Positions 5,173 through 15,545 of a stretch of DNA of 24,118 nucleotides are shown here, piece by piece. The notes beneath the pieces were generated by a model. It was not told the DNA's origin. It was given only the letters and a program-made list of their open reading frames with translations, and did not search any database. Each line of letters opens with the position of its first letter. The stretch's first letter is position 1. The DNA comes from a virus, in the IMG/VR virus record IMGVR_UViG_3300028569_001663, positions 1 through 24,118 of that record; one strand, 5' to 3'. Position numbers and translations under genes: made by a program.

Positions 5173-5247
5173 GTAGCGGGGGCGTCCCGCCACCGATTCG
5201 TTTTCTCTTCAGCAAAAGACCCATCGGCGGCAAGATGCCACCGCTAC
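5173..5247. repeat. REPIN-like repeat, class B, copy 1
   Basis: The left arm GTAGCGGGGGCGTCCCGCCACCG and the right arm, which ends GATGCCACCGCTAC, form two imperfect hairpins with GTAG at each outer end. The linker contains CAAAAGACCCATCGG. The element starts 15 bases before the ATG at 5157 and ends 2 bases beyond the stop of the upstream gene, so it fills the gap exactly. Confidence 0.8.
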
Positions 5248-7380: not shown

Positions 7381-7779
7381 CTACACCGGAGGTTTCAACT
7401 GTTCGAACGTGATGAAGATCTGTCGCCAATACCCATGAATCGCATCCGACCGCCCAATCCCCTGCTTCAATCCCGCCATCCGCACATTCTGCAGATAGGC
7501 CACCGTCTCAAACGCCGTGTCCGCCTGAAACGTCCCGACCTTGCCCAGCCGCAGCTCCAACTGAGCCAGATCCCCGTCCCTCGCCGCCGTCGACACGTAA
7601 CCCATCACGATCATCGGGACCATGAATTCGCGAATCACCAGGCCCCCGTGCATGACGCTCGTTCCGTCGACACCGAAGGCAAAGGCCCGCTGGACAGCGA
7701 CTTGCCATTCACCCCATTCAATATCGTTGATCATGCCGAGGATCGAAGCCCCGGCGTGATACAGAGCAGGCGTCGGCAT
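7381..7779 (-). CDS. Small tail protein downstream of tape measure (132 aa)
   Basis: The ATG at 7779 shares one base with the tape-measure stop (TAATG), so the two are translationally coupled. The product begins MPTPALYHAGASILG and has a central hydrophobic run (LVIREFMVPMIVMGYV) that looks like beta strands rather than a membrane helix. Its size and its place directly after the tape measure match minor tail proteins such as lambda gpM, but I see no sequence similarity that would prove it. Likely a tail-tip component. Confidence 0.6.
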   Translation of the reverse strand: MPTPALYHAGASILGMINDIEWGEWQVAVQRAFAFGVDGTSVMHGGLVIREFMVPMIVMGYVSTAARDGDLAQLELRLGKVGTFQADTAFETVAYLQNVRMAGLKQGIGRSDAIHGYWRQIFITFEQLKPPV

Positions 7780-9878
7780 TACCTTCCACCCCCAATCCCC
7801 AGACCAGCCGCAGGCACCGGCGGAGGTTTCTCACCCTGCCCCGGCATTTGCACGTTCACGTTCACATTCACCGGAGGAGGAGCCGGAGCCCGACCAGGAC
7901 GAACCGCTTGCTTCCGCTCGTCAATGATCGTCTTGGCATCCTGCATGTTTCGTTCACGCTCGATCGCATCCGCAGCCACCTGACCCCGCTGTTCGTTGCT
8001 GCCGAACGCCGACATGAACCCTTCGTGGCCCATCAACGCCGTCCCCGCGTCGTAAGCCTTTAACCCGGCCGCAATCCCGACCGGACTGAGTCCGCTGGTT
8101 TTCAATTGCAGTTCGTACGCTTCCCGCATGGTTCTGGACTGCATATCTTTCGCGGCATCGACCATTTCAATCGCTGTTTTCTGCCGAATACTGGTCGCGT
8201 TCTGCCCCGTCGTCGTGATTTCCACGTCCCGAGCAAACCCCGCTTTGTCGCCCATCTTCTTTTTCAGGGCTTCGACTTCTTGCTGGCTTCCCATCTCGGT
8301 AATCATGGACGAGATATTTCGCCCCTCGACGACGATATCCAGAGCCGATGACCGTTCGTCTTCGGGAAGACTTTCCACCCCCTTCTTGATGCGACCCATC
8401 ACCGTCGCGAAGTTCTCGCCATTGAAGTCGACGTCTTCCGGATTCAGGCCCATCCGCCCGAGCTGCTCGACCACTTTAGGAGACGCCTTGGCAGTTGCCA
8501 GTTGCCGGACAATTTCCCGCATGTGAGTGCCCGCTTCTTCGGCGATCTGAGTCTTCCGCAACATGGCGAAGTTCGCCAGTTGTTCTTCGGGTGACATCCC
8601 ACCCAGTTCACCCAGGGCGCTCGAATGTTTCGCCAACTGCTGCAAGTCCGTCACCTTCAGGGGAGTTTCCTTCAGGCCCTGAATCTGCGTGGCCAACTCT
8701 TCGACGTTCTGAGCGTTCAAGTCTTTCTTGTTCGCGGTCAGAAACATGGAAAACGATTCGGCCATGTCTTTCGCATCGGTGGACTTACCGGGAATCAGTG
8801 ACTGAGCCTTGATCAGCTTGAGGAACGGAGTCAACGCAGGCCCCTGAGCCTGATCCACACCGAACCCCGTCGACACCATCGTCGACGCCGTGTTGAAAGC
8901 GTCTTCGCTGGGGGTGGCCGTCTCAATCGCCGCCTTGTAGATCGCATTCTTCGCTGCCCGACCCTGCAAAGCGTTCAGCCCACCTTGTGCACGGAACCGC
9001 CGGACCAGTTCATCCTGCTTCCCCGCGGCTTCTTCCGAAGCCTGTTGCTGTTCCTTGTTGGCTTGCATCAGGAACCGTACCGCCTGAGTCACCGACATAT
9101 AGGCCGTCGCGATCCCGACCAGCCGCCCGCCAAACCTCAGCAGAGCATCAGAACTCTTGTCCGTCTCCGTCGTGAACTTGTGCTGATCGAGATGCATGAT
9201 CCCGATCGCTTTGGCGAACTGCTTCTGATCGATCGAACCCGCCCGCAGCAGTTCCCGATACCGCTGAATCTTCTGATTGTGCCGATCCTGTTCCGTGCCG
9301 AACGTCCGCAGTAACGCCGTCGCCTCCCGATCGTTCCGCTGCTTTTCGATGGCCGCTTCCCGTTCCGCTTTCCGGCGTTTGGCGATCAGCCCAATCTGTT
9401 CGGCATAGGCCCGCTTGTAGGCCGACATGCCCGCCATGTACTCGGAATCACTGAGTTCCCCCGAGGCATGAGCCTGCTTCAGCTTGCCGGTTTTCTCAAA
9501 GTATTCCTGCTTCGCCAGTTCCTTGCGCGACATCGCGAACCGCCGCATTGCCGCCAGTTCCTTATCCCGCAAAGCCTGAGCATCCGCCGCCGCCTTCACG
9601 TCAGCCAGTGCCGCCGCCTTTTGTGCAGCCAGTCGCGCCGCCGCATCCTTGCCGGGATCACCCCCCTTCCCAATCTTTTGAATCGCGGTCGAGATCGCTT
9701 TGAAGCCGGTTTCGACCTGCTGGCCACTCTGTTTCCCAGCCGCACCGACCTCTTTCATCTTGTCGATTTCTTGCTGCAGCTTCTGAATGAGCTTCTCCGA
9801 AGCGAGTTGCTTCTTCTGATAATCCTCGAACACTTGTCGAGAATCGCTCGTCCAGGTAATGCCAATCGTGTTCGACAT
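7779..9878 (-). CDS. Tail tape-measure protein (699 aa)
   Basis: The protein sets tail length and occupies the tail lumen. The N-terminal third (about 15-230) is rich in Lys, Glu, Gln and Ala with heptad-like spacing, consistent with coiled coil. A hydrophobic stretch follows at about 245-270 (LLRFGGRLVGIATAYMSV), then a long helical region. The C-terminus is Pro-rich with alternating NVNVNV and a Gly-rich end. At roughly 0.15 nm per residue the tail would be about 100 nm, a rule-of-thumb estimate. It lies downstream of the chaperone-like gene and is coupled to the next gene by TAATG. The Shine-Dalgarno sequence is weak (GGGG) and sits between the start and a repeat. Confidence 0.85.
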   Translation of the reverse strand: MSNTIGITWTSDSRQVFEDYQKKQLASEKLIQKLQQEIDKMKEVGAAGKQSGQQVETGFKAISTAIQKIGKGGDPGKDAAARLAAQKAAALADVKAAADAQALRDKELAAMRRFAMSRKELAKQEYFEKTGKLKQAHASGELSDSEYMAGMSAYKRAYAEQIGLIAKRRKAEREAAIEKQRNDREATALLRTFGTEQDRHNQKIQRYRELLRAGSIDQKQFAKAIGIMHLDQHKFTTETDKSSDALLRFGGRLVGIATAYMSVTQAVRFLMQANKEQQQASEEAAGKQDELVRRFRAQGGLNALQGRAAKNAIYKAAIETATPSEDAFNTASTMVSTGFGVDQAQGPALTPFLKLIKAQSLIPGKSTDAKDMAESFSMFLTANKKDLNAQNVEELATQIQGLKETPLKVTDLQQLAKHSSALGELGGMSPEEQLANFAMLRKTQIAEEAGTHMREIVRQLATAKASPKVVEQLGRMGLNPEDVDFNGENFATVMGRIKKGVESLPEDERSSALDIVVEGRNISSMITEMGSQQEVEALKKKMGDKAGFARDVEITTTGQNATSIRQKTAIEMVDAAKDMQSRTMREAYELQLKTSGLSPVGIAAGLKAYDAGTALMGHEGFMSAFGSNEQRGQVAADAIERERNMQDAKTIIDERKQAVRPGRAPAPPPVNVNVNVQMPGQGEKPPPVPAAGLGIGGGR

Positions 9879-9890
9879 CGGAACCCCAAA

Positions 9891-9981
9891 GTAGCAGGCA
9901 CGGTCCCCGTGCCGCCCGCAGTTTTCTTTCTCGACACCAAATCACAGACAAGAGCCACGGCAGATGGAATCTGCCTGCTAC
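9891..9981. repeat. REPIN-like repeat, class A, copy 3
   Basis: The arms match the class A consensus (GTAGCAGGCACGG...CCGTGCCG and GGCAGATGGAATCTGCC GCTAC); the linker includes AATCACAGACAAG. It starts 12 bases before the tape-measure ATG. On the minus strand its GTAG provides the TAG stop codon (9980-9978) of the 80-aa gene upstream. Confidence 0.85.
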
Positions 9982-10220
9982 GCTTGTGGAACAACTTTGG
10001 ACGGAGCCACCACAGACCGAAACGCCCGTTCGAACTCGGCCGTCACCTGACCACCCGGATTGAATTCGTTGTAGACCTCCTGCAAAGTCGTCTTCGAGAC
10101 ATCCGCATTCAGCAGGAACCCGCGAATCAGATCCGCCGTTTCCGCATTCACCTCACCACCAAGAACCGGAACCTCGGCAATCGGTTCCTCCAATTTCACT
10201 TCCGCCACTTCGCCATCCAT
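9978..10220 (-). CDS. Small acidic protein between chaperone and tape measure (80 aa)
   Basis: The ATG at 10220 is preceded by AAAGG, which lies inside a perfect hairpin (10222-10236). The product begins MDGEVAEVKLEEPIAEV; the N-terminal third is acidic and the rest helical (VNAETADLIRGFLLNADVSKTTLQEVYNEF). No family is recognised. Its place between the tail-assembly-chaperone candidate and the tape measure suggests a second chaperone-like or tail-initiation role. The stop codon TAG is contributed by the adjoining repeat, so the original C-terminus may have been different. Confidence 0.65.
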   Translation of the reverse strand: MDGEVAEVKLEEPIAEVPVLGGEVNAETADLIRGFLLNADVSKTTLQEVYNEFNPGGQVTAEFERAFRSVVAPSKVVPQA

Positions 10221-10221
10221 C

Positions 10222-10236
10222 TGAAAGCACCTTTCA
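10222..10236 (-). promoter_or_regulatory. Hairpin over the ribosome-binding site of the 80-aa gene
   Basis: TGAAAG, a GTG loop and CTTTCA form a perfect 6-bp stem on the minus strand, ending one base before the ATG at 10220. The Shine-Dalgarno bases AAAGG lie in the stem and loop. The stop of the -1 frame extension of the upstream gene (10236-10234) is in the same stem, so ribosomes finishing the frameshift product would melt it. The regulatory role is an inference. Confidence 0.45.
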
Positions 10237-10350
10237 CAATTGGTCCTGAAACAACAGATCGAACCACGTCGGCGCGTGATTCGGCAGCAAACCTTTCCGC
10301 CAGGCTCGGGTCTTTATGAGTCGGGGGTGAGTGAGTCGTTCTCTTTTTTT
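10234..10350 (-). other. Slippery site A7 and -1 frame extension of the chaperone gene
   Basis: Near the end of the gene at 11039 the minus strand reads TCA AAA AAA GAG, a perfect A AAA AAA slippery heptamer (10350-10344). After a -1 slip the frame stays open for 36 codons to a TGA at 10236-10234. The extension contains AWRKGLLPNHAPTWFDLLF. The fusion would be about 268 residues against 241 for the unshifted product. Lambda G/GT and many other tailed phages use a -1 shift in the gene pair between tail tube and tape measure, which is exactly this location. Frameshifting itself is inferred, not shown. Confidence 0.65.
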
Positions 10351-11039
10351 GAGAGACCCGCCGTTTCTCTCTCCTTCAGAGCCTCAAATTCGGCCAGGAC
10401 CGCTTTCACGTTCATCCCGTCCACCGCCGCCATCGTGATCCGCAGCAGATCGTCCGTGTCGAGAATGCCCAGTTCAGACGCGATCACCGAATTGATCCGG
10501 TAATTCTGCCGCAAGGCGAACACGCAGAACTCCGCCCACTCGTTCAACATCTGCTCGGGAGATCGGCCAGCGTCCGCCGCCATCTTGTTTTCGTCGAGAT
10601 CCATCAGCAGCAGCCGACGAAACCACGGTTCCGACAACTGCCAGAACTCATTGAACTGCGGCTTCCGAACTTTCTTCCACTGGCTATCCACCAGCCGCAG
10701 ACTTGACGGCAGGTCCGAGGCACACGGAACCCGCCACAAATTCCCGTCACCAAGACTCCAGTCGTAGCCGGGAAACAGCGAGGGACGAGCCAGGTCATTC
10801 GGCACGCAGGGGGAATCGGTCCAGAATCCGACCTTGTAGCCAGGTCCGTCGATCCAGCGTTGACGAGCAGGAACGTACCCGATTTCGCCCGTCCACCCGA
10901 CAATCAGACCATCGGGAACCCCGTCGCGACTGGTGACCGGGCATTCGCTGGCCCCGTCCACAAAGTCAGCCAGCCCCACAGACCGCAGGCACGACGCCGA
11001 ATTGGACATCTTGCCAGGAAACATCAATTGATAATGCAT
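10314..11039 (-). CDS. Probable tail assembly chaperone (gpG-like position, 241 aa)
   Basis: The ATG at 11039 has AAAGG upstream at a good distance. The product starts MHYQLMFPGKMSNSASC. Its middle is Trp- and Pro-rich (PGYKVGFWTDSP, LFPGYDWSLGDGNLW) and its C-terminal third is helical (about 145-232). Few members of this family are recognisable by sequence. The call rests on its place between the tail-tube candidate and the tape measure and on the slippery A7 with an open -1 frame at its 3' end. These chaperones coat the tape measure during tail assembly and are absent from the virion. At 241 aa it is longer than lambda gpG (140 aa). Confidence 0.6.
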   Translation of the reverse strand: MHYQLMFPGKMSNSASCLRSVGLADFVDGASECPVTSRDGVPDGLIVGWTGEIGYVPARQRWIDGPGYKVGFWTDSPCVPNDLARPSLFPGYDWSLGDGNLWRVPCASDLPSSLRLVDSQWKKVRKPQFNEFWQLSEPWFRRLLLMDLDENKMAADAGRSPEQMLNEWAEFCVFALRQNYRINSVIASELGILDTDDLLRITMAAVDGMNVKAVLAEFEALKERETAGLSKKENDSLTPDS

Positions 11040-11055: not shown

Positions 11056-11139
11056 GTAGCGGTGGCTTTTAGCCACCGATCATTTCTTATCTCTTTTTCC
11101 AAAACAAAAGACCAATCGGCGGCTAGAAGCCGCCGCTAC
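11056..11139. repeat. REPIN-like repeat, class B, copy 2
   Basis: The left arm is GTAGCGGTGGC, TTTT, AGCCACCG; the right arm is CGGCGGC, TAGAA, GCCGCCGCTAC. The linker contains AAAACAAAAGACCAATCGG. It begins 16 bases before the ATG at 11039 and ends 2 bases beyond the stop of the tail-tube candidate. Confidence 0.85.
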
Positions 11140-11141
11140 TC

Positions 11142-12038
11142 TTACGGAGCCGTTACAGCCGATGCCGCACTCGCCACCAGCGTCCGACCTTCCAGCCGAA
11201 TCGCCGCACTCCCGTGTTTCGTTTCTTGTGCCGAGATCATTTGCGGCTTGATCACACCAGACGCAAAACTGAACTTGATGTGTTGAGCCGTCGCGTTCGC
11301 CACATACGTTCCGCCGCTGGTCCGCTTTCGCAGGTAGGCCGTCACCGAACTGATCGCCGCCCCGCCCAGGATCGAAACGAACTGATCGAAGTCTTCGACC
11401 TGAACTTCAATCACAGGATCGATCGTTTCCAGAAACATATCGCTGGGATAGACCGCTCCGTCGTACGTCTGCAGATCCGACCAGCCCAGGCCGAACGACA
11501 CCGAATAGCCGACCTGTTTCGGAACATGCACGCCGTTGATGTACACCGGCCCGAGTCCGTACATCGCGTTGAACGCCTGAGCCTGCAATGTCTGGTTCAC
11601 CGATTCGGCGTACGGAACCACGATGCCGTCTGAGGACAGGAAGAACGCCTGGCCCTGAGCTGTCGGAGTTCCCTGCCTAGGAGCGTTGATCGACTGGGGA
11701 ACCAGGACCACGGGACAATCCGCGATCCCCACGACTTTCATGTTCGCTCCAGCCCCGACAAACGTGCCCCCTTTGGCCCGCTTCTGGTACGGAACCGTGA
11801 CGTTCGCACCACTGGCGATCAGAGTCCCCAGCGTGCCGAACGCGGTCAGGAACCCGCCAATGTCGACCGTCGACAGGCTAGCTTCGGGTTGTGACGAGAC
11901 AATGAACTGATCGGAGATCACCGGCGCACCGGAAAACCGGCCAGACATGGATTCGATCTTGGGATCGAAACCGGAATTCGTGACTTGCCGCAGATTGACG
12001 CCTGAACCCAGTAAAGCATCGTAGACTACGTCTGGCAT
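11142..12038 (-). CDS. Probable major tail tube protein (298 aa)
   Basis: The ATG at 12038 follows AAAGGG at a suitable distance. The protein begins MPDVVYDALLGSG and is a Gly/Ala/Ser/Val-rich beta protein with few charges and almost no Cys, as expected of a self-assembling tube subunit. Segments such as QVGYSVSFGLGWSDLQTYDG and DPVIEVQVEDFDQFVS suggest strand pairs. It stands where lambda has gene V, after the neck genes and before the chaperone and tape measure. No sheath-like gene accompanies it. At 298 aa it is a little longer than lambda gpV (246 aa). The role is inferred from composition and order. Confidence 0.65.
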   Translation of the reverse strand: MPDVVYDALLGSGVNLRQVTNSGFDPKIESMSGRFSGAPVISDQFIVSSQPEASLSTVDIGGFLTAFGTLGTLIASGANVTVPYQKRAKGGTFVGAGANMKVVGIADCPVVLVPQSINAPRQGTPTAQGQAFFLSSDGIVVPYAESVNQTLQAQAFNAMYGLGPVYINGVHVPKQVGYSVSFGLGWSDLQTYDGAVYPSDMFLETIDPVIEVQVEDFDQFVSILGGAAISSVTAYLRKRTSGGTYVANATAQHIKFSFASGVIKPQMISAQETKHGSAAIRLEGRTLVASAASAVTAP

Positions 12039-12662: not shown

Positions 12663-13177
12663 GGCAAACCCTCCCGATGCACGATCCAGGTCATTTCCAC
12701 CAGGTTGACACCGTTCTCTGTCACCGGATCCAGTTCCCCGCAACTGAATTCCTCGAGTCGCTGGAATTCCAGACAGCCCGCCGTCGTCGCCAGCCCCCGC
12801 AATTCTTCCGAGATCTGCCCGTACAGGTTGTTCATGTGCCGCCGATGGTCCCGATCCGTCACAGTCCCCGTCACGTCGTACCAGGTCCGCAAGGCCGAAT
12901 CCGACAGCTTCAAATACTGGATGAAGATCGACAGTTCCCCGGTCCCGATGAATGTCGTCGTCCCCGTTCGGTTGGCACTCTGAGACGACTGATGTCGAAT
13001 CACCGCCCGTGGGAATGGTTCCGTGTCGTTATCCAGAGCCAGATCTTCATGGACAAAGACCGCCGCCGCCGCCGCATCCGCCGCCCCGACCAGACGCCGG
13101 AACGTCGCGGAGGATGTCACCGTATTCGTCAAATGCTGCAATCGCAGCGATCTTTCACCCACGACGGGAACGATCAT
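12659..13177 (-). CDS. Neck or tail-terminator candidate (172 aa)
   Basis: The ATG overlaps the preceding stop as ATGA (13177-13174). The product begins MIVPVVGERSLRLQHL. It has an Ala run (DAAAAAVFVHED, about 34-45), then strands rich in Thr and Ile (TTTFIGTGELSIFIQYL), a helical stretch and a final strand (LVEMTWIVHREG). The mix of one helical layer and a beta sheet, and the gene order, would suit a tail terminator (lambda U) or another neck protein. No decisive motif is visible. Confidence 0.55.
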   Translation of the reverse strand: MIVPVVGERSLRLQHLTNTVTSSATFRRLVGAADAAAAAVFVHEDLALDNDTEPFPRAVIRHQSSQSANRTGTTTFIGTGELSIFIQYLKLSDSALRTWYDVTGTVTDRDHRRHMNNLYGQISEELRGLATTAGCLEFQRLEEFSCGELDPVTENGVNLVEMTWIVHREGLP

Positions 13178-13515: not shown

Positions 13516-13547
13516 GATGGCTTGTGTTCCTTCGTACTGGCCTTGCC

Positions 13548-13606
13548 GTAGCGGGGGCTTTTCGCCCCCGCTCGTGACTCCATCGGTTGCTAAAAGCCAC
13601 CGCTAC
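13548..13606. repeat. REPIN-like repeat, class B, copy 3 (short)
   Basis: The left arm is GTAGCGGGGGC, TTTTC, GCCCCCGC; the right arm is ATCGGTTGC, TAAAA, GCCACCGCTAC. Only about 11 bases of linker separate the arms, the shortest of the set; the other pairs have longer, relatively AT-rich linkers with AAAGAC-like words. It ends 2 bases beyond the major capsid stop and lies 32 bases before the next ATG. Confidence 0.8.
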
Positions 13607-14772: not shown

Positions 14773-14847
14773 GTAGCGGCGGCTTTCTAGCCGCCGATGG
14801 GTCTTTTAGTGAAGAAGGAATAATCGGTGGCTGGAAGCCCCCGCTAC
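14773..14847. repeat. REPIN-like repeat, class B, copy 4
   Basis: The left arm is GTAGCGGCGGC, TTTCT, AGCCGCCG; the right arm is ATCGGTGGC, TGGAA, GCCCCCGCTAC. On the minus strand the right edge gives three successive in-frame TAG codons (TAGTAGTAGC) at the end of the decoration-like gene, the first of which is its stop. Confidence 0.85.
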
Positions 14848-14849
14848 TA

Positions 14850-15545
14850 CTACTTCAACTGCACATCAGCCAACGTGCTGACCACAACACCAGCACCCCA
14901 GTTTGTGCCCACAAGAACGGCACTCGCGGCATTACTGACCGAGACGCGACCGTTGGCCGCTCCGTAGCACGCCACGCCCACGCCAATCGTGTCCGCCGCT
15001 TCAATCGCCACACCGAACGGCGATGTAATCGGAATCACCGGCACACGGCCACCAACACGCACGCCATCGGTAACGCCGATTGCTTCTTCGGTCGCTGCGG
15101 CATAGACAACAGTCGACGTTCCCGAGTCCCACTTGACCCGTCGATTCGACAACAGGTCCGACGCACAGGCAAAAGACCGACGCCATTTGGGAGCGTTCAG
15201 TAACTGCACATCAGCAAACGCATTGACGACAACACCAGACGCCCAGTTGGTTCCCACCAGAACGGCACCATTCGCATTACTGACCGAAACGCGACCGTTG
15301 GCCGCTCCGTAGCAGGCCACACCCACGCCGATCGTATCCGCCGCTTCGATCGCCACACCGTCAGGACAAGTAATCGGAATCACCGCAACTCGCCCGTTGT
15401 AGGGCACACCATCCGTCACCCCGATCGCTTCATCCGTGGCGCCGGCATAGACCACCGTCGACGTAGCCGAGTCCCACTTCACCCGTCGATTCGGCAACAG
15501 GCTAGAGGCACAGGCAAACGTCCTGTTCCCTTTGATTGTGATCAT
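14850..15545 (-). CDS. Internally duplicated capsid decoration-like protein (231 aa)
   Basis: The ATG at 15545 follows AAAGGG. The protein is two copies of one domain: residues 10-115 and 125-230 align without gaps and differ at about 18 of 106 positions by my count. Each copy has the order FACAS..L..NRRVKWDS, TSTVVYA, EAIGVTDGV, VIPIT, GVAIEAADTIGVGVACYG, resembling the small beta-rich decoration proteins (DUF2190-like) encoded beside capsid genes. Each is about as long as lambda gpD (110 aa), and the gene stands between protease/scaffold and capsid, where lambda has D. A fused, two-lobed capsid decoration protein is the most likely reading. Confidence 0.75.
   Translation of the reverse strand: MITIKGNRTFACASSLLPNRRVKWDSATSTVVYAGATDEAIGVTDGVPYNGRVAVIPITCPDGVAIEAADTIGVGVACYGAANGRVSVSNANGAVLVGTNWASGVVVNAFADVQLLNAPKWRRSFACASDLLSNRRVKWDSGTSTVVYAAATEEAIGVTDGVRVGGRVPVIPITSPFGVAIEAADTIGVGVACYGAANGRVSVSNAASAVLVGTNWGAGVVVSTLADVQLK
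14856..15173 (-). repeat. Tandem domain copy 2 of the decoration-like gene
   Basis: This segment encodes residues 125-230. It matches 15201-15518 in phase at the DNA level; many base differences fall at third codon positions, as seen around the block encoding EAADTIGVGVACYG. That suggests a duplication followed by purifying selection. Confidence 0.8.
15201..15518 (-). repeat. Tandem domain copy 1 of the decoration-like gene
   Basis: This segment encodes residues 10-115, the N-terminal copy of the duplicated domain. The linker to copy 2 encodes LNAPKWRRS. Confidence 0.8.

Follow-up and report, generated by a model that had tools for sequence, protein, structure and literature searches.

A conserved adenine run and −1 frame extension predict a second form of a putative phage tail assembly chaperone

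Introduction

Whether one phage gene yields two proteins, and whether the ribosome or RNA polymerase would be responsible for the change of frame, is the question raised by a short run of adenines in IMG/VR virus record IMGVR_UViG_3300028569_001663. The stretch analyzed here, which we call the window, covers positions 1 to 24,118 of that record (24,118 nucleotides). In phage lambda, G binds the tape measure protein and T recruits tail-tube subunits, and the −1 shifts of tail chaperone genes are textbook ribosomal frameshifting. Xu, Hendrix and Duda (2004) reportedly described such shifts as conserved in tail assembly chaperones. The original prediction for the window placed a programmed −1 frameshift at an A AAA AAA heptamer in a gene between the tail-tube and tape-measure genes, which it took to be a tail assembly chaperone gene. 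Here we compare this gene with its relatives.

Results

The gene, the slip site and the −1 frame

The gene and the elements at its 3′ end are as follows.

10314..11039, minus strand: zero-frame putative tail assembly chaperone (G-like), 241 aa, assigned from its relatives and an AlphaFold2 model
10344..10350, minus strand: slip site A_AAA_AAA, a run of exactly 7 As flanked by TCTC and GAGA
10234..10344, minus strand: −1 frame extension, 36 codons plus TGA (10236-10234), predicted fusion 268 aa
10258..10302, minus strand: conserved core of the extension, WRKGLLPNHAPTWFD, from the alignment of 24 extensions

Codons 230-232 of the gene read TCA AAA AAA and are followed by GAG, with the heptamer in the −1 phase. 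When we recomputed the coordinates of the gene, heptamer, stop and extension end from the sequence, all of those originally given proved correct. An in-phase A AAA AAA at 10350-10344 precedes the zero-frame TAA by nine codons, and the −1 frame, which opens 33 nt before the slip site, stays open for 36 codons and closes ahead of the next ATG at 10220. The length computed from the frame for the predicted shifted product is the anticipated 268 residues. The extension translates as RERLTHPRLIKTRAWRKGLLPNHAPTWFDLLFQDQL and is, as had been remarked, too short to be noticed as a gene of its own. A near-identical second viral record (99.95% over 18.7 kb) has the same A7.

A run of seven As is by itself unremarkable, and its position is what counts. 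Both strands of the window together hold a single A7, while dinucleotide shuffles average 2.70. In 22 site-bearing genes, which were selected for having the site, 0.27 in-phase A7 heptamers in total would be expected anywhere upstream, and none occurred elsewhere, against 22 at the site.

Gene neighborhood and chaperone identity

The gene lies in the order tail tube, chaperone, tape measure, with these neighbors:

11142..12038, minus strand: tail tube protein of the T5/P74-26 two-domain type, from an AlphaFold2 model (pLDDT 91) and structure matches
9978..10220, minus strand: 80-aa open reading frame (ORF) with no family match, between the extension and the tape measure gene
7779..9878, minus strand: presumed tape measure gene, 699 aa, named from its position; its own match is a weak SHOCT match only

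The tube model, built from an alignment of 21 sequences, matched the P74-26 tail tube best (8ed0; VIA-align Z 17.3, rmsd 3.0 over 261 residues), and also matched the T5 tube (9iny; VIA-align Z 16.8) and the T5 tail-tip chain 7qg9_G (Foldseek E 1.2e-8). Beyond the tube, in the upstream direction, come the genes for the portal, terminase, head protease and major head protein. Among the relatives described below, syntenic downstream genes gave tape-measure family matches in 3 of 7 tested: PhageMin_Tail (PF10145) was matched in L073 (E 4.1e-18) and L062 (1.4e-6), and tape-measure PHROGs were matched by the syntenic genes of L073 and L067. The predicted placement between tail-tube and tape-measure genes is thus borne out, by fold for the tube and, for the tape measure, by position in the window and family matches in relatives. 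The presumed start of the tape measure gene follows the extension closely in many relatives; in the window the 80-aa ORF is found there.

The chaperone itself was modeled (AlphaFold2 pLDDT 92) as a beta domain at about residues 1-125 and a helical domain at about 127-234 that ends near the slip site. This model had no match at E≤0.001 in the PDB or BFVD (best VIA-align Z 3.4), and the window protein matched no family in Pfam or PHROGs. Thirteen aligned members and six extension peptides, searched against the same two collections, gave just weak, chance-level matches. By analogy, we regard the gene as a putative chaperone of the lambda G/GT kind, from a family that neither Pfam nor PHROGs contains. 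The name, which the original prediction had used, is thus upheld by position, the tail-tube fold next door and the two-frame layout, and not by homology to a known chaperone.

REP-like paired elements, with GTAGC...GCTAC ends, sit at many gene borders of the phage segment:

3068-3158, 7290-7379, 9888-9981, 12055-12147, 15566-15665, 22050-22138: REP-like paired elements
5173-5247, 11056-11139, 13547-13606, 14785-14847: REP-like paired elements, second type

The 80-aa ORF takes its TAG stop from a repeat copy at 9957-9981. Two contigs of a Planctomyces MAG contain a 22-mer of one window repeat, and this shared word points to a Planctomycetota host and suggests long residence in, or exchange with, a host chromosome. 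The presumed head decoration gene (14850-15545) consists of two tandem repeats of about 115 codons with 84% and 79% DNA identity in two blocks.

Relatives of the chaperone and their slip sites

Taking the Planctomyces MAG as the center, we searched Planctomycetota alone, in overlapping sets of 170 genomes at family level, 392 at phylum level and 397 at class level; a search at order level covered the same 170. At E≤1e-3 these searches found 38 places, of which we set aside four partial, marginal matches (L036 and L057-L059, E 6e-4 to 7e-5) before counting. This left 34 confident relatives with best E values of 5.2e-16 or lower and 20-32% identity to the window protein; L010-L021 coincide with later loci and were counted once. 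Scans of viral contigs with the chaperone, major head protein and tube found the near-identical record alone, a scan of genome contigs with the window chaperone gave no match, and three queries against 50,697 phage records found no relative.

An in-phase A_AAA_AAA is present near the 3′ end in 22 of the 34 relatives, two have G_GGA_AAM (G_GGA_AAA or G_GGA_AAC, both chosen with the extension in view), and ten are without both site and extension. One A-run relative is anomalous: L051 has an A8 (2023-2030 of the oriented locus, 0-based start) and carries the extension motif in the +1 frame, not the −1 frame. This may possibly be an assembly base error or a site relying on another slip, and the motif's frame would also be reachable by polymerase slippage. 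We kept L051 in the counts of 34 relatives and of 23 A-run members and left it out of the extension alignment, the leave-one-out test and the pairwise test; the 24-member extension set is therefore the site-bearing genes with the window in and L051 out.

The original prediction had proposed comparing homologues and had named homologues without the slippery site as evidence against it. A slip site and the −1 frame are conserved in 24 of the 34 (L051 with its frame anomaly) and not in the other ten. Homologues of the damaging kind do occur, yet the same ten genes also lack the extension, so the two are present or absent together. Two genomes hold two chaperone members each (L047 with L060, and L055 with L061), presumably in two prophages, and in the second pair one member has the site and the other does not.

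These counts bear on the simplest account of the window, in which the A-run and the open frame are accidental and the 241-aa protein is the only product. An A7 is not rare at the 2.70 expected in the window, and ten relatives do without the site, but site, frame and extension recur together in all of the other 24. Within the alignments of the family this conservation refutes an accident, to which we give almost no credence for the window as well.

Relatives without a site

The ten siteless relatives are L026, L037, L039, L040, L042, L045 and L046, together with L050, L055 and L056. When the site region was left out of the tree, the siteless label needed 4 changes, where shuffled labels needed 8.8 on average and none of 500 shuffles was as low. 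Seven of the ten form one starred clade with support of 95/83, the root of the tree being arbitrary. We sought an extension-like domain in 4.5-19.5 kb around the ten siteless genes, where the best iE was 0.023 and all matches were taken as noise; in the short loci the best iE was 0.007. The same tube family is found nearby in five of the ten. In 20 site-bearing members, the gap between the zero-frame stop and the tape-measure start holds the extension. Given the ten relatives without site and extension, we do not regard the extension as essential.

The extension is conserved as a protein

The original prediction had described the extension as protein-like, and the comparison of relatives goes further. 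All 24 members have at least 30 open codons past the site in the −1 frame, whereas 4 members do in frame 0 and 8 in the +1 frame. For a leave-one-out test, we held out each locus in turn and searched all of its six-frame segments, about 100 per locus, with a profile built from the remaining extensions. The predicted frame and place came out on top in 21 of 24 cases, the window among them (iE 3.2e-12); the three failures were L025, L034 and L053. Pairwise comparison of the 45 codons past the site, with the near copies L024 and L060 removed, gave a mean score over 231 pairs of 40.5 for the −1 frame, as against 22.0 for frame 0 and 21.9 for the +1 frame (about 19-20 when shuffled). Scores of at least 40 were reached by 109 of these pairs in the −1 frame, 8 in frame 0 and 5 in the +1 frame.

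Substitutions follow the same frame. The closest pair, L024/L028, differs at 4 first, 3 second and 12 third positions of the −1 codons, with pS of 0.44 and pN of 0.10 in that frame. The conservation pattern was the same in the nine members, window included, in which the zero-frame stop comes no more than 11 codons past the site. Extension length ranges from about 30 to 60 aa across the family, and the alignment has the motif W..G....P[TS]..[DE], from which single members depart. Together, the profile, the pairwise scores, the codon-position bias and the nine early-stop members indicate that selection acts on the extension as a protein and that its conservation does not simply follow from the zero frame.

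A conserved small protein might be translated from a start codon of its own with no shift at all, and some members do have GTG, TTG or ATG codons in the −1 frame. Eleven of the 24 members, however, have none of these three codons in the −1 frame before the core position set by our script, and 20 of 24 have no ATG. In the window, neither ATG nor GTG precedes the extension core, and the one TTG lies inside the motif (the scripted core position being early). Translation from a separate start would also leave the conservation of the A-run unexplained, and we consider it highly improbable.

The frame change could instead serve mainly to set the dose of tape measure protein by coupling at its start, with the extension secondary. 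Spacing at the gene border is compatible with this: the zero-frame stop precedes the tape-measure start by a median of 100 nt in 20 site-bearing members, 10 of which have their extension stop at −20 to +35 nt from this start, and in 9 of 10 siteless relatives the chaperone stop is −11 to +35 nt from the presumed tape-measure start, all by a scripted choice of start. A precedent is found in Shigella spa13/spa32, where slippage ends near the gene of a length ruler (PMC5009743). Against a role in dose alone stands the conservation of the extension as protein. Close spacing is also expected from compact gene order, the choice of starts is approximate, and in the window an 80-aa ORF separates the extension from the tape measure gene. 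We judge tape measure dosage an improbable main function, less so than a separate start.

Run length points to RNA polymerase in most relatives

RNA polymerase is blind to reading frame. In the 23 A-run members (22 relatives and the window), the whole runs, at their assembled lengths, have nine As in 17 cases, eight in 4, ten in 1 and seven in the window only. The A9 runs begin at codon positions 1, 2 and 3 in 4, 9 and 4 cases. We simulated a null in which an in-phase heptamer is selected and flanking As are drawn from the gene; runs of exactly nine arose in a mean of 3.75 of 23 members (maximum 12 in 5000 simulations; observed 17) and runs of nine or more in a mean of 4.98 (maximum 14; observed 18). 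Twelve runs start at the second codon position, and in 10 of these the base after the heptamer is A (P 4.3e-6), although a further A there adds no second in-phase heptamer. The 126.9 kb of loci hold 23 runs of at least eight As, all at the site except one, and no run of at least eight Ts. The presumed prophage of L073 holds a second A9 run at position 13045, some 2.9 kb downstream of its chaperone site.

All 22 A-run relatives thus have at least eight As, and the A7 of the window falls short of this. That run length is kept whatever the codon phase is a result for the family, with the window as an outlier. Conserved length with free phase is a signature of transcriptional slippage and not of a ribosomal heptamer, and RNA polymerase is reported to slip very readily in vivo on nine As or Ts (PMC5009743). 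Sliding of the ribosome on poly(A) was considered as the cause of the nine As and rejected, such sliding being robust at A11 and slight at A9/A10 (PMC4363877). Folding z-scores revealed no consistent downstream structure in the A-run members, and z fell below −2 in only 4 of the 24 members (L048, L054, L043 and L024). In the A9 relatives, the slip is therefore most likely a realignment of RNA polymerase, as judged from these sequence features.

The two G_GGA_AAM members look ribosomal. Hairpins are predicted just downstream of both sites, very strong at the G_GGA_AAC of L048 (z −4.6) and with z −1.9 in L029. We found tRNA-Lys(CUU) in 12 of 14 host-type genomes; the presence of two lysine tRNAs has been proposed as a reason for polymerase slippage in Thermus dnaX (PMC5009743).

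The slip in the window

The run of the window is shorter than that of every A-run relative, and the site may be weak or decaying. It is an in-phase X_XXY_YYZ heptamer, but downstream structure, a common though not universal companion of such sites, was not found in the window (z +1.42), nor was a well-placed Shine-Dalgarno-like element. Without these two, ribosomal shifting in the window may be inefficient. In addition, A_AAA_AAA is less shift-prone than A_AAA_AAG in E. coli (PMC5009743).

A less likely but serious rival is that RNA polymerase slipping on the A7, and not the ribosome, gives the −1 product in the window too. The runs of the relatives look tuned to polymerase slippage, the window is without ribosomal stimulators, and for a dnaX cluster with 10, 9, 8 and 7 As it has been argued that the shorter runs may slip in transcription (PMC3711429). 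That cluster, with A8-A10 plus one A7 species, presents the same ambiguity over A7 as the window does (PMC3711429). Seven As nonetheless fall below the n>7 stated for transcriptional realignment on A-runs (PMC3711429), high efficiency in vivo is given for nine (PMC5009743), and the A7 is exactly the in-phase ribosomal heptamer. A ribosomal −1 slip at A_AAA_AAA is the most likely mechanism in the window and is favored over polymerase slippage. What had been predicted as a programmed −1 shift therefore stands as regards the conserved site, frame and extension; a ribosomal mechanism, however, is likely in the window only, as the A-run of the relatives looks built for the polymerase.

Discussion

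We consider it very probable that this gene makes two proteins, a 241-aa chaperone and a minority −1 form of 268 aa reached by way of the A-run. Most expression would yield the 241-aa chaperone, while a minority would slip at the A-run into the −1 frame and yield the 268-aa form. The two would share 232 residues, and the longer would carry a 36-residue tail that we see as a possible miniature equivalent of lambda gpT. The sequences show the site, the open frame, an extension conserved as protein and the order of tube, chaperone and tape measure; we infer the making of both products, their ratio and their binding partners. By analogy with lambda, the long chaperone part would coat the tape measure protein, the short tail would bring in tube subunits, and a fixed ratio of the two forms would allow the tube to be assembled in order. 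In the A9 relatives, the polymerase would add an A and so give access to the −1 frame; in the two G_GGA_AAM relatives, the design would be ribosomal with a downstream hairpin. It seems that one protein is reached by different recoding routes inside one family. We speculate, as the moderately favored history, that polymerase slippage on A9 runs has been kept by selection, that single members switched to a ribosomal G_GGA_AAM with a hairpin, that the window with its A7 is a crossover between the two, and that one clade dropped the second form.

Known systems share parts of this arrangement. As in lambda G/GT, the gene lies between tail tube and tape measure, the slip site is near the 3′ end and the zero-frame stop, and the −1 extension comes from a minority of expression, here by prediction (PMC5009743). 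Unlike lambda G/GT, the chaperone has no sequence or fold match to a known chaperone and has an N-terminal beta domain in its G part, the extension is about 30-60 aa, a clade lacks both site and extension, and most relatives have A9 runs instead of a bare ribosomal heptamer. The dnaX family likewise uses either polymerase slippage on nine As or Ts (Thermus) or a ribosomal heptamer (E. coli) (PMC5009743), but dnaX is a replication gene with products at about 1:1, whereas this is a gene of virion assembly. In Shigella spa13/spa32, slippage also extends the protein at its C terminus, and the end of the added coding sequence overlaps with the start of a gene for length control; that system, in contrast, belongs to a type III secretion needle, with a larger extension of 112 aa and 25-30% product (PMC5009743).

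Among the mostly open-access papers covered, PMC5009743, PMC3711429, PMC10885494 and PMC7660901 included, we found no description of such a case, whether we searched for transcriptional slippage in phage tails or their assembly, or for frameshifts, chaperones or tape measures in Planctomycete phages. The prediction tool PRFect seeks ribosomal slip motifs (PMC10885494).

That A9 is conserved irrespective of codon phase suggests that the polymerase, too, serves phages in setting the ratio of their tail chaperones. If this is true, tail assembly would be a further system, beside dnaX and some IS elements, to have moved between transcriptional and ribosomal recoding. The family has no name in Pfam or PHROGs, and its clade without the extension would offer a natural experiment on the need for the T-like part.
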